From a bacterium (GTDB lineage: Bacteria; CLD3; SB21): a stretch of 64,000 nucleotides of DNA. The notes below the pieces were generated by a model, which ran no database searches, was not told the DNA's origin, and worked only from the letters and a program-made list of their open reading frames with translations. The stretch spans positions 34,731 through 98,730 of the forward strand of contig JABWCP010000010.1 in NCBI GenBank assembly GCA_013360215.1. Direction: 5' to 3'. Every line of letters starts with the position of its first letter. Within the stretch, counting starts at the first letter, position 1. Made by a program: the position numbers and the translations under genes. This document shows positions 39,751 to 58,664 of the stretch, piece by piece.

Positions 39751-39873
39751 GATGTGATTTGCGATGGGCGGGAAGCTTTAGTACAAATATTGATGCGGAG
39801 AACCAAACTTTGATTTACCACAAATGTGTCTGCGGAGCACTAAACCGCCACTTTTGCCGGACCCGTGTTGTGC
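39751..39873 (-). other. attC-like site A (distal end of array; one core degenerate)
   Basis: The right core is GTTGTGC (39867-39873), six bases before the stop codon of the membrane-protein cassette. The right arm (GCACTAAACCGCC, about 39837-39849) pairs with the left arm (GGCGGGAAGCTTTAGTAC, about 39767-39784). The left core expected near 39751 is not recognisable, so this end may be a decayed site or the junction with chromosomal DNA. Confidence 0.5.
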
Positions 39874-39878
39874 GTTCT

Positions 39879-41393
39879 TTATTTTTCATATCCAAACCAA
39901 TTTCCTTTATCGTCAAACTTCCATTCCTTTGGAAGGTTTTGTATTTGATAAAGGTTTATGTATTCAGATTTGTACGTCTGGTTCGCATCAGATGGTATCA
40001 CTATGTCACTGAGCATATAATTGTATCTTTGTGTGGCTTCATTCGAGTTGCCGGGTAAACTCATACTTTCTTCTGTGGGGTTTAAAATAAAAACCCGCTC
40101 ATATTTTTGCAAATCGTTATTATTAAACGAGGTAATTAAACAAGATTTTGTGCCAAGAAACCAGTTACTAATGTGTTCCGCGCCATTTCTTGTTATTATT
40201 AAATCGTTATTGTTAAAACCTACTGCTGATTTCATTTTCATCAAATCCAGATAAGTCTCATCATTACTTTCTCTGTTTCGGGTTAAATTCGAGATATCAC
40301 CAACTGCGATGAGGATTGTACCAAACAAGACCAGCCCGATAACCGACTTTTTTATCCACGGCTTGGATATATTATATTGAACCATAAAAAGCAGCACAAA
40401 GATTATGGGTAAACATATGTAGTTTGCAAATCTCGCCATTAACAAGAGTTCGTAGATGGGAAATACGAGTAGGTAACAGAACAAGATATTGGATATCCAA
40501 AATATACTATTTTCTTCATCAGGTTTTGTCTTGGTATTTCTGTACCAATAGTAGAAAATTGCTATCACACCCAAAGGAAAAATAAGTATAAATAACGAAG
40601 CAAATTTATCTGGGTCATTAGCCGAAAAAACCATTCCCAAACTTGAACTGTCAAATATTCGGTTTATATAAAAACCTACTCGTTCAAATCTTTGTATGTC
40701 TAATAAGTAAAATGCAAGTAATGCAATTCCTAACCCAATAAATAAGCTAAAAACAAGCTTAAGCGACAATCTTTTTCTTGTGTGAATTAACAAAGACAGC
40801 ATCAACGATGCAGTGTATAAAAGAGCTGTCGCTGTACTTCCGAAATGACTAAGTACCATTAAGATAAATACAAGAAAAATTATAAAGAAGCGTTTGACAT
40901 TCAGATTATCAAGTGCCGATTTTGACTGTTGCATAATGATGGCTAACAAGAGCAAGCCTAAAGCGTTTTTTTGTAAAAATTCAGGCATATACAAAATGCT
41001 CAAAGGATAAAATGCACTGGCAAAAACGAATACCCACATCCAATTAGGCAAGGTCTGTTCTTTAAAAATACTTTTTATAGTAGCATAAACCGGAATGGGT
41101 AATAAAGAAGGAATCAGGCACATCCAAAATCTTGTTGCTGACACAATGGCTACATGATTTTCAACTCCAAACCAACTTAAAACTTTTGCTGTAAAAGCAT
41201 AAATATAGAAAAGCAACGGCATATCGGGAAAAGGTAGTGCCCCATTTTCAAGCAAACCTTTGGTTTGAACATAATAATAGTAGGTATGATTGAACCATCC
41301 TACAAATTCAGGTCTTCCAATCCAAATCACAAAAACACGAACAAGAAATGCAATAAAAATAAGGATTAAAAGAAGTTTTGAGTTTTGTTTCAT
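39879..41393 (-). CDS. Polytopic membrane protein, possible GT-C type glycosyltransferase
   Basis: About 504 residues with 10-12 predicted hydrophobic segments and a hydrophilic C-terminal about 110 residues. An acidic pair is absent from the first loop (GRPEFVGWFNHTYYYYV), but overall layout resembles GT-C glycosyltransferases or related polysaccharide-processing membrane proteins. The start is placed at the ATG at 41393 (MKQNSKLLLI); the longer frame from 41456 runs into the neighbouring attC-like site and is unlikely. It is the most distal cassette. Function unknown. Confidence 0.7.
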   Translation of the reverse strand: MKQNSKLLLILIFIAFLVRVFVIWIGRPEFVGWFNHTYYYYVQTKGLLENGALPFPDMPLLFYIYAFTAKVLSWFGVENHVAIVSATRFWMCLIPSLLPIPVYATIKSIFKEQTLPNWMWVFVFASAFYPLSILYMPEFLQKNALGLLLLAIIMQQSKSALDNLNVKRFFIIFLVFILMVLSHFGSTATALLYTASLMLSLLIHTRKRLSLKLVFSLFIGLGIALLAFYLLDIQRFERVGFYINRIFDSSSLGMVFSANDPDKFASLFILIFPLGVIAIFYYWYRNTKTKPDEENSIFWISNILFCYLLVFPIYELLLMARFANYICLPIIFVLLFMVQYNISKPWIKKSVIGLVLFGTILIAVGDISNLTRNRESNDETYLDLMKMKSAVGFNNNDLIITRNGAEHISNWFLGTKSCLITSFNNNDLQKYERVFILNPTEESMSLPGNSNEATQRYNYMLSDIVIPSDANQTYKSEYINLYQIQNLPKEWKFDDKGNWFGYEK

Positions 41394-41411
41394 ATTAATT
41401 TTAATTATAAC

Positions 41412-41568
41412 CCACAACGGTTTCGGGCTTTGCGTTCGGGCGGGTTTTCGGAGCACAAAGCATCAATTTATTACTCAAGTTTATTAGAATCTCTAAATTC
41501 CAAGTTTGCACGCGGCATGCTGAATTTGTTGAAGCATCGCCTCGCTTGACGCAAAACGGATGTCAGCG
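41412..41568 (-). other. attC-like site B
   Basis: Cores are CCACAAC (41412-41418) and GTCAGCG (41562-41568, a degenerate GTTRRRY). The arm GGCTTTGCGTTCGGGCGGG (about 41426-41444) pairs with CGCCTCGCTTGACGCAAAAC (about 41539-41558). At 157 bp it is the longest of the set. It ends 22 bp from the stop of the acetyltransferase gene. Confidence 0.68.
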
Positions 41569-41590: not shown

Positions 41591-42145
41591 TTACTTTTTT
41601 CTATCGTCCCATTCTCTTTTTAGCATGGCAAATTGAAATTCACTTCCCCATTTTCCTTTAAAAAATATGTTTTCTATAAAGTGTCCTTCTTGTCTAAAAC
41701 CGATGCTTTTTAATAGGTTCACGGAAGCCCTGTTTTCTGCGTCCGAAATTTCAACTACTCTGTGTATTTTTTGGGTGTCAAACAGAAACGACAAAATCCC
41801 AATTAACGCTTCTTTTGCAAAACCTTTTTTTTGTTCAAGATGCGAAATTGTAATTCCAATTTCTGCAATTCTTATGTCGGATTGATCAAGCTTAATTGCA
41901 CAGTCGCCAATAATTTTTTTCGTTTCTTTATTTTCAATGCCGTACTGCACCCATTCTCCGGCTTTTCCAAAGTGTCTTGCTGAATTGTCTTTAATAAATT
42001 CTTCGGCTTGTTCCATTGTCATAGTATCAAAACTTTGATATTTAACAACTTCCGGATTAGAACGATAAACATGAAAATCAGGCAAATCAGATAATCTGAG
42101 ATGCCGAATTTTAAGCCTAGTCGTTTCTATATTTGATACTTCCAT
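41591..42145 (-). CDS. GNAT family N-acetyltransferase (RimJ/RimL-like)
   Basis: The 184-residue protein begins with TTRLKIRHLRLSDLPDF and contains IGDCAIKLDQ, IAEIGITISHLEQKKGFAKEAL (acetyl-CoA binding loop region) and RVVEISDAENRASVNLLKSIGFRQEG, the GNAT signatures of the RimJ/RimL group. Related enzymes acetylate protein N-termini or small molecules, sometimes antibiotics; the substrate cannot be told. It occupies a single-gene cassette between sites B and C. Confidence 0.9.
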   Translation of the reverse strand: MEVSNIETTRLKIRHLRLSDLPDFHVYRSNPEVVKYQSFDTMTMEQAEEFIKDNSARHFGKAGEWVQYGIENKETKKIIGDCAIKLDQSDIRIAEIGITISHLEQKKGFAKEALIGILSFLFDTQKIHRVVEISDAENRASVNLLKSIGFRQEGHFIENIFFKGKWGSEFQFAMLKREWDDRKK

Positions 42146-42189
42146 TGCCTAAATTTTTTTGGATATGTATCGTTGTCTTTTACGAAGCC

Positions 42190-42284
42190 CGCTAACGTTC
42201 CCGCGCTTTGCGTTCGGGCGGGTTTCGGAACACAAAGCTCCAAGTTTGCACGTAAATCCGCCTGACTCAAAACCCGTATTACCT
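42190..42284 (-). other. attC-like site C (short)
   Basis: Cores are CGCTAAC (42190-42196) and ATTACCT (42278-42284, degenerate). The arm CGCTTTGCGTTCGGGCGGG (about 42204-42222) pairs with TCCGCCTGACTCAAAACCC (about 42257-42275). At 95 bp the loop is shorter than in the others. Its left arm is nearly identical to that of site B, showing common ancestry. Confidence 0.65.
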
Positions 42285-42293
42285 GCCGTTTTT

Positions 42294-42890
42294 TTATGTT
42301 TTAGCAAAATCAATCAAAGGCTTAATATCACCAGAATCTGCTTGCCTTATCGCAGTCAAATAAACTGATCTCGCTTCTCCCTTTTTATTTAGATTTGTGC
42401 TATTCCAAGTAAATATCGGTTTTCCAAATAATTGACTAATAATGATATCTGCTATTAATCTTGAATGCCTACCATTACCGTTTGGAAAACAATGTATTTT
42501 AACAATTCTATGTTTGAATCTTATTGCAAATTCCTCATCAGTATATGTTTTATTCTTTAACCAATAGAGACTATCATCCAATAATTGTTTTAAAGAAAAT
42601 CCTATTTGATGCTTATCGACTCCAATATTTTTGTTTGTCTTTCTAAAATTACCTGCCCAAGACCAGACTTCGTTAAACATTCTTTTATGAAGTTCCTTTA
42701 CAAAAATTTCGGATAGGATATACTCAGGTTTCCATTTTTTTCCAATAGTCCACTGTACAGATTTTTCTATATTTAATTGTTCGAATTCGTCTAATTCACC
42801 ACGCGTTGTGATTGATTTTATTAACAGCCCCTCTTTCTCATCTTCATCTAAAGGTGTTTGCCCTTCAATATATTCTATTTCTAATCCCAT
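42294..42890 (-). CDS. Mobile mystery protein B (Fic domain)
   Basis: A 198-residue Fic/DOC protein. The active loop reads HCFPNGNGRHSR (about 150-161), with the catalytic histidine and the GNGR anion hole intact and Asn at the position usually Asp/Glu. The start IEYIEGQTPLDEDEKEGL and MFNEVWSWAGNFRKTNKNIGV match the family named mobile mystery protein B, which nearly always accompanies mobile mystery protein A, here overlapping upstream by 10 bp. Fic enzymes usually transfer AMP to targets; this pair is thought to be a mobile toxin/antitoxin-like or regulator module but its biology is not established. Confidence 0.9.
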   Translation of the reverse strand: MGLEIEYIEGQTPLDEDEKEGLLIKSITTRGELDEFEQLNIEKSVQWTIGKKWKPEYILSEIFVKELHKRMFNEVWSWAGNFRKTNKNIGVDKHQIGFSLKQLLDDSLYWLKNKTYTDEEFAIRFKHRIVKIHCFPNGNGRHSRLIADIIISQLFGKPIFTWNSTNLNKKGEARSVYLTAIRQADSGDIKPLIDFAKT

Positions 42891-43345
42891 AAATACTTTG
42901 GCATTTTAGTTTTGATTTCTTCAGCTCTATTTTTTATTGCTTTTTCTATACGAATTTTCGAATTCTCCTGATCCTCAAGTTGCATTGTGTATGAAGTTCT
43001 CATTACAATATCCTTTGCAATGTCTAAAGCTCTTTTTTCAATCATTTCTTCAATACTTTGTCCTTTTGGTATAAACCCATAAACAAGTTTCATATCAAGT
43101 ACCGCTCCAACTTCCCTAAGGCCTTTTATTGTAATTGAACCATTGGCCTCACGTTCCTCAATCTCTTTTACACTTTGAGGAGATATTTTTAAACGATTAC
43201 CCAATTGTCTCAACGACATTTTTAAAGCAATGCGTATTGTATGTATCCATCCTTTGGGGGGTATTGAAAATGAACTCAAAGGTCTGAACAATGCCAATTT
43301 TCTATCAGCTTGTTCAATAATTAGTCGTTGTTTTGAAATATCCAT
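42881..43345 (-). CDS. Mobile mystery protein A (HTH regulator)
   Basis: The 154-residue protein has an Xre-type helix-turn-helix (about 35-85): IRIALKMSLRQLGNRLKISP followed by SVKEIEEREANGSITIKGL. This matches mobile mystery protein A, the partner of the Fic protein encoded immediately downstream. It probably regulates the pair and may neutralise the Fic protein. Starting ATG at 43345; first gene of the two-gene cassette between sites C and D. Confidence 0.9.
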   Translation of the reverse strand: MDISKQRLIIEQADRKLALFRPLSSFSIPPKGWIHTIRIALKMSLRQLGNRLKISPQSVKEIEEREANGSITIKGLREVGAVLDMKLVYGFIPKGQSIEEMIEKRALDIAKDIVMRTSYTMQLEDQENSKIRIEKAIKNRAEEIKTKMPKYLWD

Positions 43346-43449
43346 CAGGTTATATCCTAAAATTATTTACTAAAATTAAGGTTATAATATGAAATATCAA
43401 GATGTTTTTTAAGGTTAAAACCTGACGAAATGTTGTTTTAAAAATGGGG

Positions 43450-43581
43450 AGATAACGTTTTGGGGCTACAAGAAGTTGGCGCTTTCGGAGCACAAAACTG
43501 TCTGCCAGCACCAATGTTTATTAATTGCTCAAATGTTTGTATTCGCACTGCCCGCCCACTAATGCAAAACCCGTGTTGAGC
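43450..43581 (-). other. attC-like site D
   Basis: Cores are AGATAAC (43450-43456) and GTTGAGC (43575-43581, a good GTTRRRY). The right arm GCACTGCCCGCC...GCAAAACCCG follows the same pattern as sites B, C and F; the left arm pairs less well (CGTTTTGGGGCT...GTTGGCGC). Length is 132 bp. The right part overlaps the truncated czcD reading frame. Confidence 0.62.
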
Positions 43582-43649
43582 CAAAATGCTACAGTTATAT
43601 TACCAGTTGAATTGTTGTTATTATGGTCGTGTGAATGATTATGTCCCAT
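43521..43649 (-). pseudogene. Truncated N-terminus of a CDF cation transporter (czcD remnant)
   Basis: Starting one base after the DUF3703 stop, the minus strand encodes MGHNHSHDHNNNNSTG followed by NITVAFWLN, the typical His-rich start and first membrane strand of CzcD-like cation diffusion facilitators. The frame then runs into attC-like site D (cores at 43575-43581) and stops at 43521 after 42 codons, without the remaining about 250 residues. No continuation exists to the left, where the mobile-mystery pair begins. The metal operon therefore lost its last gene at the cassette boundary. Confidence 0.8.
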
Positions 43650-43650
43650 T

Positions 43651-44019
43651 TTATTTTCTTGTTGCTTTAATTATTATTTTAAGGTCTTCGGGTATTTCCA
43701 TGGGCTGTAGTGGTGGAACATTTGCACCTCCAGTATTCCCTAGTGGGATGTTACCGACAAAGGATTTTACTCCACCGACTAATAAGCGGGGAATTTGTCC
43801 GATTACTTCTTTTGGATTTTTAGTTTTGATGCCGAAAATCAACATTTTCCAGTGAACATAGGAATGTGCAAAAGGATAGGGCTGTCCAAGTATGTGTGCT
43901 CTTTCTAAGTGTTGCCAACTTTGTTGCAAATATCCTTTAGAAAAGGCATTTACAGCTTCGCTTATTTCCTTTTGAAAGTATGGTTTTAGTGCTGTCGGCA
44001 TTGATGTGTTAAATTTCAT
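43651..44019 (-). CDS. DUF3703 family protein
   Basis: A 122-residue soluble protein (LKPYFQKEISEAVNAFSKG, SWQHLERAHILGQPYPFAH, HWKMLIFGIK) matching DUF3703, a family found almost only in heavy-metal efflux operons next to CDF and RND transporters. It lies 11 bp after the efflux adaptor gene and ends 1 bp before the czcD remnant. Biochemical role unknown. Confidence 0.85.
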   Translation of the reverse strand: MKFNTSMPTALKPYFQKEISEAVNAFSKGYLQQSWQHLERAHILGQPYPFAHSYVHWKMLIFGIKTKNPKEVIGQIPRLLVGGVKSFVGNIPLGNTGGANVPPLQPMEIPEDLKIIIKATRK

Positions 44020-44030
44020 AGCTTAAATTT

Positions 44031-45302
44031 TTAATGTTCGTGTGCCTCTCCTTTGTTGTTCATTTTAGCCAATATAAAAAATGCTCCGTTAACTACTACT
44101 TTGCTATTAGCGGGAATTTCCTTTAGCAAAGTAATCTCGCTGTAACCTATATCGGTTGTGCCTTTGCGAATAGGAATTTTTTCAAAGGTTGTTCCTTCTT
44201 CGGCGGGTTCGGGTTCCTCCTTTTCGCTGTGTTCGTGTCCGTGTTCATCGTGTTTATGCTCAGCAGTTGTGGTTTCGCTATGGTGTTCTACTTCCTTGTG
44301 AGCATCGGTAACGATAAAAATATAGTCCTGCCCTTCGTGGTTTACAATGGCGTTGGTAGGCACTGCATCAACGGTTGCATTTTCTAAACTTACTAGTGCG
44401 GTAATACTCATCCCGTCAATCAGTCCTTGTTTGTTGCCTTTTACCATTGCGTGAACGGCAATGGCTTTGGTGTTTGCTTCAAATGTGTTGCTAATAGCGT
44501 AAACATCGGCATCGTATTCTTTACCCGGATTGTTGGTAAGGGTAAAATGTATGGTTTGTCCAATTTTTAGTTTTTGTAAATCTTTTTCATACACATACAA
44601 ATCCAAATGCAGTTGGTTGTTGTCCACAATTTCGGCTATGGGATTATCGGCATCTACATAGCTGCCAATGTTAACCATTACATTGCTGATTGCCCCGCTG
44701 ATTGGGCTTGTGATACTAACGGCAGACTGAATATTATCTGAAGTAAGCGTTTCGGTATTAATGCCGATTAGCTCTAATTGCTTTTTCAGACTTGCTCGTC
44801 TTGCTTTTAATGTTTTAAGTTCTGCTTCGGCTGATTGCAGATTTTTTAGTGCTGTTGCGTTGCCTTGTTGCAATTCCTTTTGTCGGTTAAATTCTAATTG
44901 TGCCAATTCTGCTTTTGAAGAAATGCTTAAAAATTCTTCCTGTAAAGTGATGAATGAATTATTGGTGATGGTGGCAATTATCTGTCCTTTGCTAACAGTG
45001 TTGCCCGTTTGCACTAAGATAGATGTGATTACTCCGCCCAATGATGCCGTTGCATTGGCTTTATTCTGATTTGGCACTTTCAAAATTCCATTGGCTTTGA
45101 GGGAAGCTGTGAGTTGTTTTTTTTCAACACTACCGAACTCAATTTTTATTGATTTCATTTGTTCGGCTGTGAGCATTGACGTGTTGGAGTTTTCGTGTTC
45201 ATCGTGATGCTCGTTTTCCTCTCCGTGCGTTTCTTTTTTGCTGTTGCAGGATGCAAATACTATTGATGTTGCAATGGTTGCTATGAGGATTATATTTTTC
45301 AT
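44031..45302 (-). CDS. RND efflux periplasmic adaptor (CusB/CzcB-like) lipoprotein
   Basis: A lipoprotein signal (MKNIILIATIATSIVFASC, Cys19) and a His-rich stretch (about 25-41) precede the adaptor: barrel-sandwich hybrid halves (GGVITSILVQTGNTVSKGQ and SPISGAISNVMVNIGSYVD) around a coiled-coil hairpin (about 130-185), then the beta-barrel. A second His/Glu-rich insert lies near 340-375. His-rich segments are typical for metal-efflux adaptors. It follows the transporter gene by 11 bp. Length is 423 residues. Confidence 0.92.
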   Translation of the reverse strand: MKNIILIATIATSIVFASCNSKKETHGEENEHHDEHENSNTSMLTAEQMKSIKIEFGSVEKKQLTASLKANGILKVPNQNKANATASLGGVITSILVQTGNTVSKGQIIATITNNSFITLQEEFLSISSKAELAQLEFNRQKELQQGNATALKNLQSAEAELKTLKARRASLKKQLELIGINTETLTSDNIQSAVSITSPISGAISNVMVNIGSYVDADNPIAEIVDNNQLHLDLYVYEKDLQKLKIGQTIHFTLTNNPGKEYDADVYAISNTFEANTKAIAVHAMVKGNKQGLIDGMSITALVSLENATVDAVPTNAIVNHEGQDYIFIVTDAHKEVEHHSETTTAEHKHDEHGHEHSEKEEPEPAEEGTTFEKIPIRKGTTDIGYSEITLLKEIPANSKVVVNGAFFILAKMNNKGEAHEH

Positions 45303-45313
45303 GTTTTGAAATT

Positions 45314-48300
45314 TTATTTGTTGATTAAGAAATTGATGTTGATGATGGATTGATTGATTTGGTTAACCGATTGCAGATAACTCAACTGCACATCAGTAGC
45401 GGTTTGCAAGGCTTGTAAGTATTCAATGTAACCAATGTCGCCACTTTTGAAACCAAGCGTTGCGGTGCTGATTATTATGTCAGCATTGGGCAAAGCGGTG
45501 GTTTTGTAATAATTGTATTGCGACAAATTCTGGTTGTATTGCTGAAAAGCATTTTGCAACTGGTTTTGTAAAATCAGTTTTCCGTTATCGGCTACTTTTT
45601 GCAATGCTTGTTGTTTGTAGTCAAGCGATTTTATTTTTGCAGCGTTGCTGAAAAAAGTAAGCGGAATGCTGATACCTATGTTGAAGCCTTGAAAACGTTT
45701 GCTGCGGTCAAAGAATACATCAGAGCCGTTAATAGTTTGCACCCCAATAAGCGACTGATTGAAGTAACCTACACTATAGTCGGGAAGTGTAGAGGCGGTT
45801 TCTAACTTTTTGTTTTGTTCTGCAATTATTGCTTGCTGATACAACACCTTTAGCGATGGGTTATTTGCTATTAGCGTTGTGTCAAACGAACTGCTTAAAA
45901 CAAGCGGTTGCAAATTTTCACTTACCGAAATTGTAAAATCTTCGCTTGTATTCATTAACGATTTAAGCGAATTGTAAGCCGTTGTAAATTCCGTTTCGTT
46001 TTGTTTAAGTAACTGAGAAAGTTGTCCCCGTTTGGTTTCGGCTGTGGTTTTTTCCAACAAATTGGTTTCGCCTGTTTTGTAACGCAAGGCGGCAGCATTC
46101 ACAAAATCGTTATACAAACTGTCAAGAGATTGCAGTTGCTTTTTTGTGGTTTGTAAATATTGCAACTGATAAAACCAGTATTGCACCTGTGCTTTTATTT
46201 CGTTGGCGGTGGCTTGCTGCTGCAACTCACTACTTTGCAATTCGGCTTTATACAAACCTGATTTAGCGGTGTAATAAGTAGGAAAGGGAATACTTTGTGA
46301 AACCTGAAATGCCTTATCCTGATTGATGCTGTTAAATTGCCCAAACTGAAAATTGACATCCGTTTTTGGTAATTCAAACACCGATTTTTTCAAGGTTGCA
46401 GAAGATTGCACATTGAGTTGTTGCGATTGCATTTCTAAATTGTTTTTCAATGCTGAACTTATGGCATCTTCAACCGAAATGGTTTTGGCTGTTGGCGTTT
46501 GAGCATTTGCAGCATTGAATGAAAGCAACGCAAAAACTACAATAGCCGTTGCAGATATTTTGCGTATTGGCTTTTTGATTTTTGAAAACATCAAATACAA
46601 CAACGGCAAAACAATTAGGGTTAAAAAGGTTGCTGTTATCAATCCGCCAATTACAACAGTTGCCAAAGGTTTTTGCACCTCTGCACCTGCACCATGCGAA
46701 AGTGCCATTGGTAGAAACCCCAACGATGCAACAGTGGCAGTCATCAGCACAGGTCGCAAACGGATTTTCGTTCCTTCTTTTATGCGTTGGATAATGTCGG
46801 TCATTCCGTCTTTCTCCAATTGGTTAAAAGTTCCAATCAGTACAATGCCGTTTAAAACCGCTACGCCAAACAAGGCAATAAAACCAATACCTGCCGAAAT
46901 GCTGAAAGGCATATCACGAATGAGCAAGGCGAATACTCCGCCTATTGCACTCATTGGAATTGCGGTGTAAATAAGTGTTGCTTGTTTTACTGAACCAAAT
47001 GTGAAATAAAGCAACATAAAAATGAGTGCTAAAGCTACTGGTAATGCAATCATTAGGCGTTTGCTCGCTGCTTGCAGATTTTCAAATGTTCCACCATAAG
47101 TGTAATAATAGCCTTCAGGCAATTTTACTTTTTCGTTCAATTCCTTTTGAATATCAGTAACTACACTTGCTACATCTCTACCTGAAATATTGAAACCTAC
47201 AACAATTCTGCGTTTACCATCTTCACGGCTTATTTGTGCAGGACCCAATTCCATTTTTATTTCTGCTACTTGTGATAATGGTATTTGAGTTCCGTTTGTA
47301 GTTGGAATATACAAATGACTTACATCGTCAATGTTGTTTCGGTGTGTGCTGTCCAAGCGAACAACCAAATCAAATTTGCGTTCGTTTTCATAAACTACAC
47401 CTGCCCCACCACCTGCAAAAGCGGTGCTTACAATGTGGTTTATATCCTCAATGTTCAAACCATAGTTGGCAATTTGCGAACGGTTGTATTTGATGACGAT
47501 TTGCGGAAGCCCTGCAACCCGTTCAACGCTTGGTTCGGTTGCACCGTCCACACTTTGCACAACTGAATTTACCTTGTTTGCATAAGCCAAAAGTGTGTCC
47601 ATATTTTCACCGAAAATTTTAACGGCAACATCTTGACGAATACCTGTCATGAGTTCGTTGAACCTCATTTGGATGGGTTGGTTTTTTTCAAAGAAAACCC
47701 CAGGAATTGTGCTTAGTTTTCTTTCTATTTCTTCTGCCAGTTCATCATACGTAACATCCCGTTTCCATTCGGAAGGCTGTTTAAGTATTATCATCATGTC
47801 TGTTGCTTCGGGGGGCATTGGGTCGGTGGGAACTTCGGCTGCACCTGTTTTTCCAACTACCATTTTTACCTCGTCAAATTCTTTGATTATGCGGGATGCC
47901 TGCATGGATGTTTCCAAACTTTGTGAAAGTGATGTGCCTTGCGGTAATATGCAATGGAAAGCAAAATCGCCTTCCTGTAATGTAGGTATAAATTCACCTC
48001 CCAATTTTGAAAACAGGAAAACAGAAACCACAAAAACGGCAACCGTTATGCCAACAATTACTTTTTTGAAACGAATGGCTTTATCTAATAGTGGTGCATA
48101 GATGCGTTGAAATAAATTCATCATTCTATCGCTAAAAGTTTGCTTGTGTGAAATGGTTTTTGGTAAAAACGCTGCACACATCATTGGAATATAGGTAAGC
48201 GATAAAATCAATGCCCCGAAAATGGCGAAACCAACAGTTTGAGCCATTGGGCGAAACATTTTTCCTTCAATACCTATAAGGGTAAGAATTGGTATATAAA

Positions 48301-49770: not shown

Positions 49771-49779
49771 ATAAATTCA

Positions 49780-50708: not shown

Positions 50709-50842
50709 GTTATAACGGTTCTCGGCTTTGCGTAGTGGCGGACTTAGAAGTACTTCACTGTCAGCCTACCACAAATGCTGATTAGATGCACAAAGTTACA
50801 ATTTTGCACTGAGCCCGCCATTACGCAAAACCGATGTTGTGC
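50709..50842 (-). other. attC-like site F (best paired)
   Basis: Cores are GTTATAAC (50709-50716) and GTTGTGC (50836-50842). The arm GGCTTTGCGTAGTGGCGGAC (about 50724-50743) pairs almost throughout with GCCCGCCATTACGCAAAACC (about 50813-50832). Length is 134 bp. It lies after the multicopper oxidase gene, separated by about 130 bp of AT-poor spacer that holds a TTGCCAAGT/ACTTGGCAA inverted repeat. Confidence 0.75.
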
Positions 50843-50975
50843 CTTCGTTGTTCTTTTTCGTCTGTTATGTTGTCGGTCAATACTGTCAGCATTGGGAAAG
50901 CTATACTCTTTGCCAAGTTTTGGTTTGCGTGTCGGCTCGTGCGACTTGGCAATGTGTATGGCTTGTGGGTTGGAT

Positions 50976-53207
50976 TTAATAATTAAGTGTCAGTCCTATT
51001 CCAAAACCCATATCACTGTCGTAATGTGTTCTGAACCCTAAGTTTTTACTTGCGATATAATTTAGTCCAAACATATATTCTTTGTCTGTATTTACCATAA
51101 ATGAGGCTCTAAACCTTTTTGAAAGCGGAATGTCTTCACGTCTTAATTGTACTCTTACATTTCCATCGTGATAGACTTCTGTTTGTAAAATTACAAGCAT
51201 TGGTAAAGTATAAGCCACCCCTAAACTAAATTGTGTCCGATTGTCTTTGGTGTTTGTCTGCCCAAAAATATTTTTTTCAAATTCCCCATCTTGTTTTCTG
51301 TATCGCCAATCAAAACCAACAAATGGCATTAGCCATTGGTTTCTGCCAATGTATCGTCCTATGTGGGTTTCAGTTTCATAACCGTGTCTGTCGTGATAAC
51401 CTAATCGCCATTCTGTGCCAAAACTCCAACGGGTATTTTGTAACATAGTCATTCCGTCATTACCATTGGTTGCAAAGTCGTTTTGGAACATAAAATGTAG
51501 TTCATTGCTTTCCCGTTGTAATTTTTTGTAAGCCCATTTTTTATCAGGCAGCAAGGGATTGGGTTCTTGGTTTTCTGTGCTAAAAACTCGGTTCATTCCT
51601 GCCATCATATGGTAGAGAATATGACAATGAAAAAACCAATCGCCATCTAAATTGGCTTCAAATTCTATAACATTGGTTTCCATTGGCATTATGTCCAACA
51701 CATTTTTAAGTGGTGCATAATCACCTTGTCCGTTTATAACCCTAAAATCGTGTCCGTGCAAGTGCATTGGGTGTCGCATCATTGAATTGTTGTAGAGTGT
51801 TATTCTTACAATTTCACCTTTTTTGATTAGAATTTTATCAGTTTCTGCAAGCACTCGGTTGTCCATACTCCACACATAGCGGTTCATATTGCCTGTTAAT
51901 TCAAACCTTAATTCTCTGATAGGTGCATCTTTTGGTAAAGTGGTTTTGGTGGGTGATTTCAGCATTGCGTAGTTTAATGTAACAATGTCATTGCTTGGCA
52001 TTGTATGATTGCTATGGTCTGAATGTTGAGATGATTTTGGTTTATTTTCTCCTGTAATTTCATGGTACATTACCGTATTCATATCCATTTGTTGAAGCGA
52101 CATATCCATTCCCATATCGTTCATTTTGCCGTTCATTTTCATCATATCATTCATCATCTTCATTCCTTCAAAATATTTCAGTTTGGGCAATGGACTTACT
52201 AACTGTTTGATACCTGAACCAATATAAATTGATGCCGATTTGGTGCGGTCTTCGGGTGTTGCCAAAAATTCGTAAGAAGTATTTTCTGCGGGAATGGTAA
52301 CAATTACGTCATACGTTTCTGAAACCCCGATTATCAGTCTATCTACCACAACAGGCTCAACATCATTGCCATCATTGGAAACTACTGTAATTTTTCCACC
52401 TGCGTAGGTGAGCCAAAAATAAGATGATGCACCACCGTTTGAAATTCGCAATCTTACTTTATCGCCTGCTTTGAATTGAGAAAGTTGACTTTCAGATGTT
52501 CCGTTAATCAAAAATTTATCATAGTACACATCACTCACATCCATTGCCAACATTCGTTTCCATTCGTTGGTTAATTTGGTTTTGAAATGCCCTGCTTTTA
52601 TGGCTTCTCCATAACTCTGAACGGTGTTTTTCTTGATGGCAAACCAATCATTGGCATTGTGTAACATTCTGTGAACATTGTCAGGATTATAGTCTGTCCA
52701 TTCGCTTAAAATAATTGGAACAGTCGGCAAATCGTCAATCCCTTTTCTGAAAGTAGGGTCGTCTGTTCTTTTAAGAAGAACCATTGAGCCGTACATTCCA
52801 ATTTGTTCTTGTAGTCCGCTATGACTGTGATACCAATGTGTGCCGTTTTGAATTATCGGGAAACGATAAATGTGCGTGGTATTAGGTTCTATCGGCATTT
52901 GGGTCAGGTACGGAACGCCATCTTCTTTATTAGGCAAATACAAACCGTGCCAATGCAAAGATGTACTTTCTTTAAGCCTATTGTGTACGTGTATTTCTGC
53001 TGTGTCGCCTTCTGTAAACGTAAGTGTAGGCATTGGAATTTGTCCGTTTACGGCAATGGCTCGTTTTTCTTTACCTGTAAAATTTACGATAGTGTCTTTT
53101 ACAAAAAGGTCATATCGGACTACTTTTTGGGCGATAGTGTTTGTGGTTGCCAATAGTAAAACAACTATCGGCAACAGTTTTTTATAAATATTTTTTTGAT
53201 TATCCAT
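50976..53207 (-). CDS. Multicopper oxidase (CopA-like) fused to a CopB-like outer membrane domain
   Basis: A signal peptide (about 1-27) precedes three cupredoxin domains with all copper motifs: HWHG (85-88), HWYHSH (124-129), HPMHLHGHDF (near 480) and HCHILYHMMAGM (near 525). A Met-rich segment (MMNDMMKMNGKMNDMGMDM) lies between domains, as in CopA/PcoA oxidases that detoxify Cu(I). After about residue 570 the protein continues with about 170 residues of alternating, aromatic-rich strands ending FGIGLTLNY, resembling the beta-barrel of CopB/PcoB. In most bacteria these are separate proteins. First of a two-gene unit with the methyltransferase. Confidence 0.9.
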   Translation of the reverse strand: MDNQKNIYKKLLPIVVLLLATTNTIAQKVVRYDLFVKDTIVNFTGKEKRAIAVNGQIPMPTLTFTEGDTAEIHVHNRLKESTSLHWHGLYLPNKEDGVPYLTQMPIEPNTTHIYRFPIIQNGTHWYHSHSGLQEQIGMYGSMVLLKRTDDPTFRKGIDDLPTVPIILSEWTDYNPDNVHRMLHNANDWFAIKKNTVQSYGEAIKAGHFKTKLTNEWKRMLAMDVSDVYYDKFLINGTSESQLSQFKAGDKVRLRISNGGASSYFWLTYAGGKITVVSNDGNDVEPVVVDRLIIGVSETYDVIVTIPAENTSYEFLATPEDRTKSASIYIGSGIKQLVSPLPKLKYFEGMKMMNDMMKMNGKMNDMGMDMSLQQMDMNTVMYHEITGENKPKSSQHSDHSNHTMPSNDIVTLNYAMLKSPTKTTLPKDAPIRELRFELTGNMNRYVWSMDNRVLAETDKILIKKGEIVRITLYNNSMMRHPMHLHGHDFRVINGQGDYAPLKNVLDIMPMETNVIEFEANLDGDWFFHCHILYHMMAGMNRVFSTENQEPNPLLPDKKWAYKKLQRESNELHFMFQNDFATNGNDGMTMLQNTRWSFGTEWRLGYHDRHGYETETHIGRYIGRNQWLMPFVGFDWRYRKQDGEFEKNIFGQTNTKDNRTQFSLGVAYTLPMLVILQTEVYHDGNVRVQLRREDIPLSKRFRASFMVNTDKEYMFGLNYIASKNLGFRTHYDSDMGFGIGLTLNY

Positions 53208-53867
53208 TTAAGAAATTTCATTTTTTGTTGCATTGAAATAGGAAAATGTGCCAATTGCTGTATTGATAGATTTTGTTACCAAAACATTGTCAAAACCTGC
53301 TTTTGTAATAAAATCGGGCATCAATCCTTTTACATTATCATTCGTGGTTTTGAAACCATCTAACAATTGAACCAATCTAAAAGTAAATCGCATTAACTTG
53401 TTCTGTGCTTTTCCCCAATCGGCAATAATGAGTTTACCGTTAGGTTTCAAAACCCGATGCAACTCTTTAAGACAATTCAATTTTGTTTCAGCATCTAATT
53501 GATGAAAAACCAAACAATTGTAAACTTTATCAAAAGTGTTATCGGTAAAAGGTAAAATACCACCATCGTATAAATGCAATGGAATTGAAGTATTATTTTT
53601 TGCCAATTTATGTTCGGCAATCGCCTTTACTTTGGGGTCTATATCCAATCCTTCTAATTTTGTTTTTGGATTTTTCTTATGTGCCAAAATCAAATTTTGT
53701 CCTGTACCAAAGCCAAATTCTAAAATCTTTTCGTTCGCTTGTGGATTGATTTCTTCAACCAAAAGTCTTCTGAATTTTTTTTCGGGCATAGTAATTTTAA
53801 TTGCCAAATCATAATAGGCAGTTAAAAAATCGTAACCCAATGCTGGAATATATTTTTTATTTTCCAT
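53208..53867 (-). CDS. Class I SAM-dependent methyltransferase (UbiE/MenG-like)
   Basis: The 219-residue protein has the SAM loop KILEFGFGTGQNLIL (about 43-57), GLDIDPKVKAIAE, DKVYNCLVFHQL and LHRVLKPNGKLIIADWGKAQ, a small-molecule methyltransferase of the UbiE group. Its stop abuts the multicopper oxidase start. Such enzymes are often found beside copper oxidase genes in Bacteroidota; the substrate is unknown. Confidence 0.85.
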   Translation of the reverse strand: MENKKYIPALGYDFLTAYYDLAIKITMPEKKFRRLLVEEINPQANEKILEFGFGTGQNLILAHKKNPKTKLEGLDIDPKVKAIAEHKLAKNNTSIPLHLYDGGILPFTDNTFDKVYNCLVFHQLDAETKLNCLKELHRVLKPNGKLIIADWGKAQNKLMRFTFRLVQLLDGFKTTNDNVKGLMPDFITKAGFDNVLVTKSINTAIGTFSYFNATKNEIS

Positions 53868-53882
53868 TTGTTTTTTCGTTTA

Positions 53883-53917
53883 AAAAATGGTGTAGCCAAA
53901 TAGGCTACACCATTTTT
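53883..53917 (-). terminator. Intrinsic terminator after the HMA/DUF3347 gene
   Basis: ATGGTGTAGCC and GGCTACACCAT form an 11-bp stem with a 5-base loop, flanked by A/T-runs. On the minus strand it follows the stop of the gene at 53920 and precedes the methyltransferase start, so it separates two transcription units or attenuates read-through. Confidence 0.85.
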
Positions 53918-53919
53918 GG

Positions 53920-54783
53920 TTATTCAATTGTTTCTACCGTTTTACCACAAGTAAGCATTTTAGAACCGTAATAAGGGTTTTTAACTGCATTTTCCTTGCT
54001 CAACCAATTAGCACCTTTGCCATTGTTTGCCATTGGGCAATGTTGGTAATAAGTAGGCGTTTCTTGTTTAGAAACTTTCAAGAGTTGATACATATTATCT
54101 GACAAAGTATTGAAATGGTCTCTTTGATGTCCCGTATCTTTGGTTTCTTCGATGTGTTCGGTATCAAATTTCAAGTCTTTCATTACTTTCATCCAAACAG
54201 TATGCTCTTCATTTGAAAGTTTATTCATCTGTACCGCATTAAGAGCATTGAGCAATTCTTTTGCTTTGGAAGAAGCTAGATTTCCGTCAGACTTTACCAA
54301 AGCATCTTTTAGAGCGAAGTAATTTTCAAAAACTGATGATAGTTGATTTACTTCTTGTTTTGTTTCAGTTGGCTTGTCTGTTGCTCCACCGTGATTGTGA
54401 TTAGTATGGTCGTTAATCGTTTCTGATTTCACAATTTCCGTTTTTTTTGCACGGTCGTATTGGCAACAATTAGGAAGTTTGGCATACGCATCATCAGGTG
54501 CAAGAAATTGGTCGCTATCGTAACCTGCCAATGCAATCCGTTTTAAGATTTCGTCTTGACTGGTTTTACTTGGGTCGTATGTAAGCGTAGCCATTTTGGT
54601 ATCTTTGTTCCAATCTACTTGGGCTACTTTCTTAACATTTCCTGTTTTTTCAATGGTGCTTTCGCACATTCCGCAGTTACCATATATTTTTACGCTTTCG
54701 GTTTTGGCGTTTTTTATTTGAGCGTTACACGCTGTGAACGATAGCAATAGGGTAATTGCCATCAATATTTTTATTGATTTCAT
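53920..54783 (-). CDS. Secreted HMA-domain protein with DUF3347
   Basis: After a signal/lipoprotein-like N-terminus (MKSIKILMAITLLLSFTAC) comes a heavy-metal-associated domain with GNCGMCESTIEK (metal-binding CGMC) and AGYDSDQF, then CC in LPNCCQYD and a DUF3347 domain (from about 145) with the typical C-terminal YQHCPMANNGKGANWLS and NPYYGSKMLTCG motif also found at the CusB metal-binding region. It is predicted to bind copper or a similar ion in the periplasm and hand it to the efflux system. Length is 287 residues. Confidence 0.88.
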   Translation of the reverse strand: MKSIKILMAITLLLSFTACNAQIKNAKTESVKIYGNCGMCESTIEKTGNVKKVAQVDWNKDTKMATLTYDPSKTSQDEILKRIALAGYDSDQFLAPDDAYAKLPNCCQYDRAKKTEIVKSETINDHTNHNHGGATDKPTETKQEVNQLSSVFENYFALKDALVKSDGNLASSKAKELLNALNAVQMNKLSNEEHTVWMKVMKDLKFDTEHIEETKDTGHQRDHFNTLSDNMYQLLKVSKQETPTYYQHCPMANNGKGANWLSKENAVKNPYYGSKMLTCGKTVETIE

Positions 54784-54876
54784 CTTTTTTTAAATTAAAT
54801 GTTTAACGAATAATTGAATTTGAAAGCAAGAAAAATGCTTTCAATTAGACAGACCTATGGCTGTCAAGGCAAAAAA

Positions 54877-55248
54877 TTAGCCTATTTTGGGCGGTTGCCA
54901 AATAGAAAGGAAACCTGATGAATAATAGGTATCTTGATAATAAAAGTTAAGCTTACTAACGATTATTGTAATTCCTGAAAATCCGTCAAAAAAAGGAATT
55001 GTAAAGTTTGTGCAATTAGTAGGACAATGACAAGCTGGATTACCGCATTTCCCATCACAATCTTTACCGTGTTTACCACATTGTCTTTTTTCTGTGTTGC
55101 AACAATCTTTTTTTTCTGTCTTCGTATTAGATTGTTTGGTGCTAGTATTTTCTATGTTTTCAGAATTTGACCCACAAGCATAAGAGTCTGTTGGTGTCAA
55201 AAAGAAACCAATCAGGGTTAATAATGCTATGTAAAAAAATCTAGTCAT
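54877..55248 (-). CDS. Cys-rich secreted protein sharing the WQPPKI C-terminus
   Basis: A signal peptide (about 1-24, ending SYAC) is followed by a Cys-rich cluster (DCCNTEKRQCGKHGKDCDGK and CGNPACHCP) and ends SSGFLSIWQPPKIG, nearly identical to the end of the DUF6660-like protein at 49780-50103. Both genes are preceded by TACATTTGC, which contains the Bacteroidota -7 element TAnnTTTG. Probable metal-binding accessory protein; 123 residues. Confidence 0.78.
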   Translation of the reverse strand: MTRFFYIALLTLIGFFLTPTDSYACGSNSENIENTSTKQSNTKTEKKDCCNTEKRQCGKHGKDCDGKCGNPACHCPTNCTNFTIPFFDGFSGITIIVSKLNFYYQDTYYSSGFLSIWQPPKIG

Positions 55249-55388
55249 ATTCTTTATAACTGCAAATGTACAAATTTTATTCTGTCAAGCGTTGGTAAAA
55301 AACAGCTCTTTTGGTTTTTCAGCGTTGGCTTTATGTGTCGGCAAAAAACCAAATGTGCTGTTTGTGCGGTCGGCTTTTCTACAATGAG

Positions 55389-55521
55389 GCACAACGGTTT
55401 GGGTATTGCCGAAGGCGGGGACTTTTAGCACTGAACTTCAATAGAATTACTAAAGTTCAAATAAAGCAAAAAAGTTCAATAGAAGAACTTTAGCCCCGCT
55501 TTTGGCAATACCTTGTTAGCC
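55389..55521 (-). other. attC-like site G (different arm sequence)
   Basis: Cores are GCACAAC (55389-55395) and GTTAGCC (55515-55521). Arms: GGGTATTGCCGAAGGCGGGG (about 55400-55419) pairs with CCCCGCTTTTGGCAATACC (about 55494-55512). Its arm sequence is unrelated to that of sites B-F but the pairing and length (133 bp) are the same. The right core overlaps the stop codon of the next gene. Confidence 0.75.
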
Positions 55522-56205
55522 ATAGTTTTTTATTAACCCGTTTAGGTTGTTTTCTTTTAATAATTTGTCAATATACTTTCCTCTACTACTTGTTTTTCTT
55601 TGGTATGGAGCAAATAAAGAAGTTACTTGATTAAATTCTTCGTTAAGTTTTAGAAGTTCATCTCTGTTAGTTTCGTTTAAAGTACTATTTCCATACTTTT
55701 GATTAAATTCAATAAGTTTTTTAATGACGATTTCCTTTTCTACAATTTCTTTTTCAGAAGCATTTAAAGTGCATATTCCGTAAATTCCATTACAATAATG
55801 TTTCCATTCTGTTTCAAAAACTTCATTTAGTAACCTATCTATTTCTTCCGTTTTATTTATGAATAGATTGTCATACGCAAATTTATTTTCGTTGTGATTC
55901 TTTAAATTTTGAACGAAATTTTGTTTAAATGTTTCTTTTATTTCTTCTGGTTTTTTCTTGAAATTCTTGTAGTCGTTTAACTTTTCAATATGACTTTTTG
56001 AAAAATATTTTTCGTATTTAGTATTTACTAATTTGTCGGATAAAGGCGAAGTTATTATTTCTTGTTTCTCAATAGAATAGGAGTAATTAGGAATAATCTC
56101 CTTTTCTATTAGCTCTAAAATTTCGGTTTCAGAGAATCCTGTTTTTTCAGACAATTCTTTTAATTCAATAAAATTTTCTTTTATGTATTGCGTATCTGTT
56201 TTCAT
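55516..56205 (-). CDS. Hypothetical protein, DUF6058-like
   Basis: A 229-residue soluble protein rich in Lys, Glu and Asn. It begins with an HTH/MerR-like stretch (LKELSEKTGFSETEILELIE) and has a central motif HYCNGIYGICTLNAS that I associate with DUF6058. Its stop codon lies within the attC-like site G and it forms a single-gene cassette with site H upstream. Function unknown. Confidence 0.6.
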   Translation of the reverse strand: MKTDTQYIKENFIELKELSEKTGFSETEILELIEKEIIPNYSYSIEKQEIITSPLSDKLVNTKYEKYFSKSHIEKLNDYKNFKKKPEEIKETFKQNFVQNLKNHNENKFAYDNLFINKTEEIDRLLNEVFETEWKHYCNGIYGICTLNASEKEIVEKEIVIKKLIEFNQKYGNSTLNETNRDELLKLNEEFNQVTSLFAPYQRKTSSRGKYIDKLLKENNLNGLIKNYG

Positions 56206-56220
56206 TTTTGTTAAAATTAT

Positions 56221-56350
56221 GGCTAACGGTCGAGTGTATGTGCCGTAAGGGATTGCGGAGTAGTTCCCTGTCCACCGACACGAAAGTTTGAGCGGGCTAC
56301 AATGCTTAAATACCCACTGAAACCCTTATGGCATATACACTTTGTTGTGC
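56221..56350 (-). other. attC-like site H (different arm sequence)
   Basis: Cores are GGCTAAC (56221-56227) and GTTGTGC (56344-56350). The arm AGTGTATGTGCCGTAAGGG (about 56233-56251) pairs with CCCTTATGGCATATACACT (about 56323-56341) with only about two mismatches. Length is 130 bp. Arms differ in sequence from all other sites. Confidence 0.75.
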
Positions 56351-56634
56351 GTTCGGCTTTTATTTATTTCATTTTCTTATTGTAAATTTAAGCAAAGTTA
56401 CTAATTTTGCATTCAATTATTTAGGTTTTTTTCATTATGTATTACAGCAGACCTTGGACGACTATCTAAGTGATAGACAGTCCCAAATAAATTTTCCATA
56501 ATCTTTTTGGCAAGACAAACAGCCTATGTTTTGGTGTGTCGTCATTTTTAATGAAGGCATTTCTTTGTCATAGTTGCTCTGTCAGGTAATACTGTCTTTC
56601 ACATCGCTACGATTTGAATTCAAGTATTCACCCT
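56351..56634. other. AT-rich leader of the erm/IS30 cassette
   Basis: About 284 bp between attC-like site H and the IS30 left end hold the promoter above and no open frame of note. It probably was the upstream region of erm before the IS inserted. Confidence 0.45.
56379..56409 (+). promoter_or_regulatory. Bacteroidota-type promoter reading toward IS30 and erm
   Basis: ATTG (56379-56382) and TAATTTTG (56402-56409) are 19 bp apart, matching the -33 TTTG / -7 TAnnTTTG promoter of Bacteroidota sigma factors. It points to the right, toward the erm gene, with the IS30 insertion now between them. Probably the original promoter of the cassette gene. Confidence 0.45.
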
Positions 56635-57778
56635 TGAGTTCAACTTGTAAATGCAACTTTTAATTTATGATTGTTGCATAGGAATAGATACAATATTTTT
56701 TCAGAGAGGAAAGAGAGAGTTACTCTCCTTCGCTCTGCTGAATGGATAAATATTACTATCTTCGCCTGTGTCCGTCCAAAGATTTAGTTGTAGATATGAA
56801 ACATTTAACCGTAGAACAAAGATATACCATTTTTGCGATGTTGCAAATAGGTTATACACAAATAGAGATAGCAAAGACTATCGAAGTAGATAAAAGTACT
56901 GTAAGCCGAGAGTTAAGGCGTAATTGTGATATGCGTAGTGGTAAGTATATTATGGATTTAGCACAGCGCAAAGCAGATAAACGCAAGGCAGATAAGAGAC
57001 GTAAAGAGCTATTTACCTTACAGATGCAGCGTAGGGTTAAGAAGCTCTTAAAAAGAGGTTTTAGCCCTGAACAGATTGCAGGTAGGAGCAAGAATGAGGA
57101 TAAGCCAATGGTCTCTCACGAAACTATTTATCGCTGGATATGGGAGGAGAAGCGAAAAGGTGGCACGTTACACAAGTATCTAAGGCGGCAGGGACGTAAG
57201 TATGCTAAACGTGGCTCAAAGAACGCAGGACGTGGATTTATCCCTAACAGAGTAGATATTGATGAGCGTCCAAATGTGGTTGATAACAAAGAGAGATTTG
57301 GAGATTTAGAGATAGATACAATAATAGGTAAGAATCACAAGGGTGCAATTCTTACCATTAATGATAGACTAACAGGTAGGGTTTGGATACGAAAACTACA
57401 AGGGAAAGAAGCCATCCCAGTAGCTAAAGTAACCGCTTGGGCTCTACGAAAAGTAAAGAACTTAATTTATACTATTACGGCTGATAATGGAAAAGAATTT
57501 GCAAAACACGAGGAAATAGCACAAAAGTTAGAACTAGATTTCTACTTTTGTAAGCCATATCATTCTTGGGAGAGAGGTGCTAATGAGAATACTAACGGAC
57601 TAATTAGGCAATACATTCCAAAGGGTACGGACTTTAGTGAGATAACCAATAAGCAGATTAAAAGGATAGAAAATATCCTCAATAATCGACCTCGTAAAAG
57701 ACTTGGATACCTCACACCAAATGAAAAATTTAAACAAATTATTAACCAGAATTCAGTTGCATTTGCAAGTTGAATTCA
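56635..57778 (+). mobile_element. IS30-family insertion sequence
   Basis: Left end TGAGTTCAACTTGTAAATGC (56635-56654) and the complement of the right end (TGAATTCAACTTGCAAATGC, about 57755-57778) are inverted repeats with few mismatches. They enclose one transposase gene whose stop lies in the right repeat. CACC flanks both sides and may be the target duplication. The element is about 1.14 kb, normal for IS30. Confidence 0.85.
56796..57773 (+). CDS. IS30-family transposase
   Basis: The product starts MKHLTVEQRYTIFAMLQIGY with the helix-turn-helix of IS30 (AKTIEVDKSTVSRELRRN), followed by SHETIYRWIWEEK and an intact DDE catalytic core: DLEIDTIIGKNHKGA, TADNGKEFAKHE and YHSWERGANENTNGLIRQY. 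The ATG at 56796 is preferred over the upstream one at 56742, which adds 18 unlikely residues. About 325 residues, apparently intact. Confidence 0.92.
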   Translation: MKHLTVEQRYTIFAMLQIGYTQIEIAKTIEVDKSTVSRELRRNCDMRSGKYIMDLAQRKADKRKADKRRKELFTLQMQRRVKKLLKRGFSPEQIAGRSKNEDKPMVSHETIYRWIWEEKRKGGTLHKYLRRQGRKYAKRGSKNAGRGFIPNRVDIDERPNVVDNKERFGDLEIDTIIGKNHKGAILTINDRLTGRVWIRKLQGKEAIPVAKVTAWALRKVKNLIYTITADNGKEFAKHEEIAQKLELDFYFCKPYHSWERGANENTNGLIRQYIPKGTDFSEITNKQIKRIENILNNRPRKRLGYLTPNEKFKQIINQNSVAFAS

Positions 57779-57797
57779 GCACCTGTAAGAAGTCATA

Positions 57798-58598
57798 ATG
57801 AATAAAAATAAATTGCCTGTAAGATTTACAGGTCAGCACTTTACAATTGACAAAGTGCTAATTGAAGATGCAATAAAACAATCAAGAATTAATCAAAACG
57901 ATACGGTCTTAGATATTGGTGCAGGAAAAGGATTTCTAACTGTACATCTACTACAAAAGGCAAAATTAGTCATTGCGATTGAGAATGATTTTGAGTTAAT
58001 AACGCATCTAAAACACAAATTTAAACAAACTCAAAACATTCAAGTTTTTGGATGTGATTTCAGAAATTATAAAATTCCTGATTTTTCGTTTAAGGTTGTT
58101 TCTAACATACCATTTGGTATAACATCAGAAATTTTAAAAATATTGATGTTTGAAAATATGGAAAGTTTTCAGGGCGGTTCAATTTTCCTGCAATTAGAAC
58201 CTGCTAAAAAGTTATTTGTAGACAAAATCTTTAATCCTTACACTATCCTATATCATACATTTTATAGTTTGAAGATAGTTTACGAAATAAATCCTAATAG
58301 TTTTATACCTCCTCCAACTGTTAAGTCTGCTTTTCTTAAAATTGAACGAAAACCTTTACATATTGATTTTAATCAGAAAGTCAAATATTTAAATTTTCTA
58401 TCCTTTCTGTTACAAAAACCTAATTTACCTGTCAGAACGGCTTTAAAATTAATATTCAGAAAAAGTCAGGTTAATGAGATTTCCGAAAAATTTGGAATTA
58501 ATTTGAACTTAAAAATCGTGAATCTATCTCCAAGTCAATGGGAAGATTGTTTTATTGAAATGCTGAAAGTTGTCCCTGAAAAGTTCCACCCTTCATAA
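57798..58598 (+). CDS. erm: Erm(F)-like 23S rRNA adenine-N6 methyltransferase
   Basis: Erm enzymes dimethylate A2058 of 23S rRNA and give resistance to macrolides, lincosamides and streptogramin B. The 266-residue product has NDTVLDIGAGKGFLT (SAM motif I, about 35-49), VFGCDFRNYKIPDF and VSNIPFGITSEILK (motif IV), and ends FIEMLKVVPEKFHPS. The start (KLPVRFTGQHFTIDKVLI), end and length are those of Erm(F), the Bacteroidota class, though not identical to it as I remember it. It is oriented opposite to the other cassettes and starts 20 bp after the IS30 right end. Frame and motifs are intact. Confidence 0.93.
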   Translation: MNKNKLPVRFTGQHFTIDKVLIEDAIKQSRINQNDTVLDIGAGKGFLTVHLLQKAKLVIAIENDFELITHLKHKFKQTQNIQVFGCDFRNYKIPDFSFKVVSNIPFGITSEILKILMFENMESFQGGSIFLQLEPAKKLFVDKIFNPYTILYHTFYSLKIVYEINPNSFIPPPTVKSAFLKIERKPLHIDFNQKVKYLNFLSFLLQKPNLPVRTALKLIFRKSQVNEISEKFGINLNLKIVNLSPSQWEDCFIEMLKVVPEKFHPS

Positions 58599-58657
58599 TC
58601 ACTTCTTTTATATTAAGGTGGTATTTCCATTATCGGGGTCTTGTCTTTTAAGCTGAC

Positions 58658-58664
58658 GCACAAC
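58658..58664 (-). other. Single attC-type core at the recombinase end (attI-like junction)
   Basis: GCACAAC lies 90 bp after the recombinase stop and reads GTTGTGC on the minus strand, the same core as in sites A, F and H. No second core or pairing arm follows to the right, so it looks like the primary insertion point (attI-like) where the newest cassette joins the platform. Confidence 0.55.

Follow-up and report, generated by a model that had tools for sequence, protein, structure and literature searches.

The region between 39.75 and 58.66 kb of the 64-kb DNA stretch analyzed here (the window; contig JABWCP010000010.1 of the bacterial assembly GCA_013360215.1, positions 34,731 to 98,730), which forms part of a 98.7-kb contig in a 3.7-Mb genome, is very probably an integron operated by a recombinase other than the integron integrase IntI. 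The elements are arranged in a single direction, from the integrase gene through an attachment site (attI) to seven cassettes, each consisting of one or more genes with an attC-like recombination site at the left (Table 1). An earlier note on this DNA had proposed a cassette array with seven such sites, nearly all genes on the minus strand, and AT-rich composition, but overlooked the recombinase gene and the fact that position 58664 is the attI junction. The seven sites were borne out, and the attC function ascribed to them is now supported by the recombinase and attI at one end of the array and by one cassette that has moved as a unit. The GC content is 33-40% across the array as compared with 47-50% in the flanks, and the cassette genes are on the minus strand except for the erm gene and the IS30 transposase gene of cassette 1, both on the plus strand.

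Support for all seven sites comes from a covariance model (R1), which was built from 41 sites of other genomes with the window excluded. The covariance search that the earlier note had suggested, run with this model, returned all seven sites on the plus strand, i.e., on the bottom strand of the minus-strand cassettes, with E-values from 3e-25 to 0.0017, and the best unrelated match elsewhere in the 64 kb had an E-value of 0.51. Two weaker matches on the opposite strand are echoes of the same palindromes. Neither of the outcomes named beforehand as contradicting the proposal, a lack of covariance matches and sites fixed in place, was encountered. The search of the array region against Rfam gave no match. 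In a scan for arm pairing between AAC and GTT, with shuffled controls, sites 5-7 exceeded chance and sites 1-4 did not, and relatives of the integrase were therefore sought. Likewise, the three integrase-proximal sites fold clearly better than shuffled sequences, whereas z-scores of the four distal sites are about zero and their stems are decayed or mosaic. The inverted cores, ascribed to every site in the earlier note, fail at the leftmost one, where the outer core is lost. Distal decay combined with proximal folding is expected if insertion occurs at attI and old cassettes decay.

When the 41 sites from relatives are aligned as bottom strands, the AAC and GTT cores are invariant and are followed by an asymmetric spacer (5 nt facing 1 nt) and a 19-bp stem, in which all 19 pairs show compensatory changes. 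Paired cells constitute 94.3%, compared with 66.1% in shuffled and 36-48% in slid alignments, the percentage being partly built in because the training sites were chosen by arm similarity; the covariation score is 0.668 versus 0.159. The pair of columns 27 and 119 is G.T in 35 of 41 sites. Read on the top strand, such a pair is an A.C mismatch, so that it marks the strand; over all pairs pooled, G.T occurs 70 times and A.C 13 times. With DNA folding parameters the bottom strand is the more stable one in 34 of the 41 sites (p 2.5e-5). The spans between cores behind the integrases of relatives are uniform, mostly 122-126 nt. Both the covariation and the strand-biased folding fit a site whose recombining form is probably a hairpin of the single bottom strand.

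The integrase gene, which ends 90 bp from position 58664, is intact, and its catalytic residues are conserved. The protein comprises a HARP-like N-terminal domain (residues 1-72), a SAM-like core-binding domain, and a catalytic domain, and it lacks the IntI-specific domain; for this reason the region is not a canonical IntI integron. The IntI-specific domain was detected in 20 of 20 canonical IntI proteins and in none of 27 integrases of the HARP family, including that of the window. The score against the integron integrase profile TIGR02249 is 204.7 bits, below the cut-off of 265 (true IntI proteins score about 290-490), and the score against NF040815 (XerA) is above the cut-off. In the phylogenetic tree, the HARP clade (support 97) falls outside the IntI clade (support 100), and both are apart from XerC/XerD; a sister relationship of the two clades is neither demonstrated nor rejected (approximately unbiased test, 0.63). 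The predicted structure (pLDDT 88) is closest in fold to VchIntIA (2a3v, the nearest solved structure) and XerA, and residues 1-72 form a separate, confidently predicted domain. Foldseek placed the HARP domain of SMARCAL1 (4o66) at rank 2-3, followed by XPB structures, and the Pfam HARP family (PF07443) gave 19-21 bits against a gathering score of 25, which makes the domain HARP-like only. HARP in SMARCAL1 recognizes branched DNA, and it is thus an attractive guess that the HARP-like domain may take over from the IntI-specific one in reading the folded hairpin. Two distant recombinases (L023:9073-10185 and L028:9662-10825) share the HARP-like N-terminus; no sites of the window's type were found near them.

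A conserved attI with a G^TT junction adjoins the integrase gene in the window and across relatives. The consensus TATAAACAA, directly followed by GTTR, was found in 69 of 85 loci at a median distance of 99 nt after the integrase stop, a count that is descriptive because the loci were matched by pattern; the sequences diverge beyond it. The first 60 nt past the integrase stop contain the motif TAnnTTTG in 42 of 78 loci, whereas shuffled sequences gave 2.9 (maximum 9); it mostly lies about 10 nt past the stop, and 29 loci have TTG at the -33 distance, within the last integrase codons. Since TAnnTTTG is the promoter form of Bacteroidota, the motif likely serves as the cassette promoter.

The transfer of cassettes was traced by comparison of arrays. 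Cassette 1, an antisense erm(F)-like gene plus attC, is approximately 99% identical in Saprospiraceae UBA2365 (L041). When the two loci are aligned at GTT, 15-nt blocks are identical at 15 of 15 positions inside the cassette and at 3-9 of 15 outside, and at the far end the identity begins at GCTAAC. The identity is thus bounded exactly by G^TT cores on both sides, and cassettes therefore move as units delimited by the cores. The integrases adjoining the two copies are clearly diverged. Independent insertions affected the two copies, one of an IS30 element in the window (a secondary insertion at about 56633-57779, absent from L041 at that point) and one of a different transposase in L041. Among 49 ends of segments shared across arrays, 13 coincide with GTTR in both partners, compared with 1.6% expected by chance, the segments being not fully independent.

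A genome of the same family (G003) contains an integrase 54% identical to that of the window, behind which come an attI-like sequence and at least four similar sites that separate co-directional genes. The scan of named genomes identified 248 integrase relatives, and the best 80 of these 248 are almost all from Bacteroidota. Many of their contigs stop shortly past the integrase, as repeats do this to assemblies. In the 80 loci (1.06 Mb) R1 found about 155 sites, which follow the integrase and lie on the bottom strand, the exceptions being one upstream site (L078) and one cut site on the opposite strand (L062). We surveyed 296 Bacteroidota genomes with thresholds of E 1e-100 for the integrase and 1e-9 for sites: 44 genomes (about 15%) encode the integrase and 136 (46%) contain sites, which occur in 41 of 44 integrase-bearing and 95 of 252 integrase-less genomes (Fisher p 1e-12). 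A lone site of the same type is present on another contig of the window's genome (G000:C43:4747-4883). Full-length integrases are also encoded on the Chryseobacterium plasmids L111 (NZ_CP041688.1), which has six sites, and L112 (NZ_CP094530.1).

Antibiotic-resistance genes are among the cassettes of this system. In five contexts of tet(X) (Acinetobacter, two Empedobacter plasmids, Sphingobacterium, and Bacteroides fragilis) the DNA is unrelated up to G^TTATG(T/G)GCC and common after it, and an attC of the window's type follows the gene (R1 E-values 9e-16 to 2e-20); in Acinetobacter this attC is truncated. In pHH1107, tet(X3) is preceded by tpnF, a truncated member of the integrase family with attI retained. 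An intact integrase precedes resistance genes separated by attC sites on the Paenimyroides aquimaris chromosome (L069:9968-16428, NZ_FNXE01000003.1), in the order Tet(X), AadS, an AAC(3)-I-like gene, antisense Erm(F), and a sul-like gene; the NCBIfam cut-offs are exceeded by Tet(X), AadS, and Erm(F). Linkage of tet(X), aadS, and erm(F) is likewise known from Bacteroides elements, and the B. fragilis sequence has tet(X), then attC, then erm(F) in antisense. A short piece without open reading frames lies between attI and tet(X) in P. aquimaris (L069:11080-11230) and also before tet(X) in B. fragilis. The blaVEB cassette starts at GTTAGCGGTAA in three settings, namely behind attI1 of a class 1 integron, a canonical attC, and a HARP-family attI, the last accompanied by a truncated integrase; R1 matches the attC of blaVEB at 1e-11. 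On plasmids of Proteobacteria, tet(X3) (L113:7049-9180) and blaVEB-3 (L115:5058-6679) are located directly behind a truncated HARP-family integrase with attI. On a Flagellimonas marinaquae plasmid (L114:4912-6850) two sites flank a DHFR-like gene, and erm(F) is present in antisense, a layout as in the window.

We propose that attI, located about 100 bp beyond the stop codon of the recombinase gene, is where this enzyme inserts circular gene cassettes, each cassette comprising one or more genes and then an attC-like site of roughly 125-135 nt. The folded site would present AAC/GTT cores, the 5:1 spacer, the 19-bp stem, and the strand-marking G.T pair, and the HARP-family integrase would catalyze an exchange between G and TT of the core. 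With insertion at attI, the array would extend leftward from 58664, with the oldest and most decayed cassettes furthest away. The cassettes, being co-directional with the integrase, would probably be expressed from a promoter at its 3' end.

Several observations weigh against this interpretation. Four of the seven sites in the window (1-4) no longer fold well, 95 of the 136 attC-bearing Bacteroidota genomes have no detected integrase, and TAnnTTTG is not present at the integrase end of the window itself. The HARP matches are weak (Pfam E-values 1e-3 to 2e-4, under the cut-off; Foldseek E 0.06). The training sites were picked by arm similarity, although the spacer asymmetry and the strand bias are free of this effect. 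Part of these observations would suit an integron that has become a fossil in this genome, with its distal sites decayed, cassette 1 interrupted by IS30, and the promoter motif missing. We consider such inactivity possible but rather doubtful: the integrase is intact with conserved catalytic residues, the proximal sites fold well, and cassette 1 was acquired recently, as indicated by its near identity to the copy in a distant lineage. A fossil would in any case be compatible with the region being an integron of the non-IntI type.

The sites could instead form the attC cluster of an ordinary IntI integron that happens to lie beside an unrelated Xer-like recombinase, and cross-talk between the two systems is real, as the blaVEB cassettes demonstrate by the same boundary behind attI1, a canonical attC, and a HARP-family attI. 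However, no protein in the window's genome matches TIGR02249 above the cut-off, ten genomes with canonical IntI gave only two weak R1 matches, and sites lie directly behind HARP-family recombinases in dozens of unrelated genomes, in agreement with the co-occurrence described above; we therefore regard this explanation as highly improbable. Repeats spread by homologous recombination or transposition, e.g., palindromic miniature elements, with the genes being incidental, would account for mosaic sites such as site 4, which joins halves of two site types, since repeats can recombine. Yet the stem sequences vary freely with compensatory changes and so are not copies of one another, the transferred units consist of a gene plus a site with ends at the core, and the polarity is fixed relative to the integrase, which leaves the repeat explanation with a negligible probability. 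In its tandem cassettes with attC-type sites in one orientation, its attI with a G^TT junction, and the core-delimited transfer of its cassette 1, the array corresponds to an integron in a functional sense, though not to one of the IntI family.

Table 1. Features of the array in the window (coordinates from the first nucleotide of the 64-kb stretch; R1, E-value of the covariance match; z, folding relative to shuffled sequences)
Feature	Position	Strand	Evidence
Tyrosine recombinase (379 amino acids), integrase of the integron	58755-59894	-	Profile, structure, and tree analyses
attI-like region between integrase stop and first cassette; ...GATATAAACACG^TT, junction G at 58664	58655-58754	-	
Cassette 1: erm(F)-like gene in antisense (57798-58598, +) plus attC	56227-58663	-	Common to L041, exact core at both ends
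IS30-family transposase in cassette 1	56742-57773	+	77% DNA identity to IS4351
attC-like site 7	56220-56351	+ (bottom strand)	R1 2.3e-16; z -2.4; near identical in L041
Cassette 2: DUF6058 protein	55516-56205	-	
attC-like site 6	55388-55522	+ (bottom strand)	R1 2.5e-24; z -6.5
Cassette 3: multicopper oxidase (50976-53207), methyltransferase (53208-53867), two further open reading frames	50976-55248	-	
attC-like site 5	50709-50843	+ (bottom strand)	R1 3e-25; z -3.9
Cassette 4: CusA/CzcA-type RND heavy-metal efflux (45314-49675) and neighbors	43651-50679	-	
attC-like site 4, mosaic stem	43449-43582	+	R1 1.1e-11; z 0.7
Cassette 5: mobile mystery proteins B (Fic) and A	42294-43345	-	TIGR02613 and TIGR02612 above cut-off
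attC-like site 3, decayed	42189-42285	+	R1 9e-10; z 0.3
Cassette 6: GNAT acetyltransferase	41591-42145	-	
attC-like site 2, decayed	41417-41563	+	R1 5.3e-10; z 1.2
Cassette 7: membrane protein, weakly EpsG-like	39879-41456	-	E 0.0007, under cut-off; reading frame from furthest start
attC-like site 1, last of array, outer core lost	39761-39857	+	R1 0.0017; z 0.4

The largest unit, cassette 4 (7.3 kb), possibly represents several fused cassettes; R1 found no additional site inside it, and megablast of this metal-efflux cassette against plasmids gave no match. A 74-bp segment of it (50109-50182) is 94.6% identical to a segment of another array (L089:18556-18629). The adjacent site 4 has arms from two different site types and, judged from its sequence, looks as if two attC had recombined through their loops, fusing cassettes. 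A tRNA-Ala predicted at 46656-46734 is likely a false positive, as it sits within the RND gene. Outside the array, a very long open reading frame of 3176 amino acids occupies positions 16473-26003. An empty chromosomal site was not found in relatives by means of the flanking genes, the flanks there being diverged and on separate contigs.

The system resembles IntI integrons (classes 1-3, chromosomal integrons, and the Vibrio superintegrons) in having a recombinase gene with adjoining attI, tandem cassettes in one direction, attC hairpins with AAC/GTT cores, G^TT exchange, a bottom-strand folding bias, and the fold of VchIntIA. It differs from them in the integrase, which belongs to a separate clade and has a HARP-like N-terminal domain in the absence of the IntI-specific one, in the co-directionality of cassettes and integrase with attI past the integrase stop, and in the 5:1 spacer and conserved G.T pair of the sites. 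In the Treponema denticola type of integron the integrase is also co-directional with the cassettes, and its enzyme is counted as IntI. XerA (NF040815; 5hxy, 4a8e) is similar in the catalytic domain and provides the best sequence match in the Protein Data Bank; it acts on dif-like sites, and it has neither the HARP-like extension nor a cassette array. The tpnF (TnpF) product by tet(X3) on Acinetobacter plasmids is a truncated HARP-family integrase, with attI and the tet(X) cassette still in place; in a main paper on tet(X) it is termed a recombinase and integrons are unmentioned (PMC7722449). For tet(X3) in Acinetobacter the literature describes ISCR2-mediated movement, in contrast to the cassette mobility suggested here. 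We found no description of a HARP-family integron system in the open literature, preprints and most subscription papers being outside the search.

The IntI-specific domain is treated as defining for integron integrases in a paper on archaeal integrons (PMC9668308, citing Messier and Roy, 2001), and searches requiring it would miss the HARP-family integrase. Beyond Chlorobi and Ignavibacteriae, IntegronFinder 2.0 reported one complete integron in Bacteroidetes proper, in Salinibacter (PMC9024848). Integrons are regarded as almost lacking in Bacteroidota (PMC9024848), as opposed to the 46% of genomes with sites and about 15% with the integrase in our sample of 296. A broader hypothesis, for which we see the chances as evenly balanced, is that the HARP-family system represents a second, parallel integron lineage in which a HARP-like, junction-binding domain replaces the IntI-specific one in recognizing folded attC, and that it is both the principal cassette system of Bacteroidota and the pool from which tet(X), aadS, erm(F), and blaVEB came. 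The system supplies a concrete source of the tet(X), aadS, and erm(F) genes that are linked on mobile elements of Bacteroidota and of the tet(X) gene located after tpnF in Acinetobacter, and blaVEB shows that cassettes of the HARP-family system also enter class 1 integrons. The finding makes it testable whether the recognition of folded attC evolved twice.
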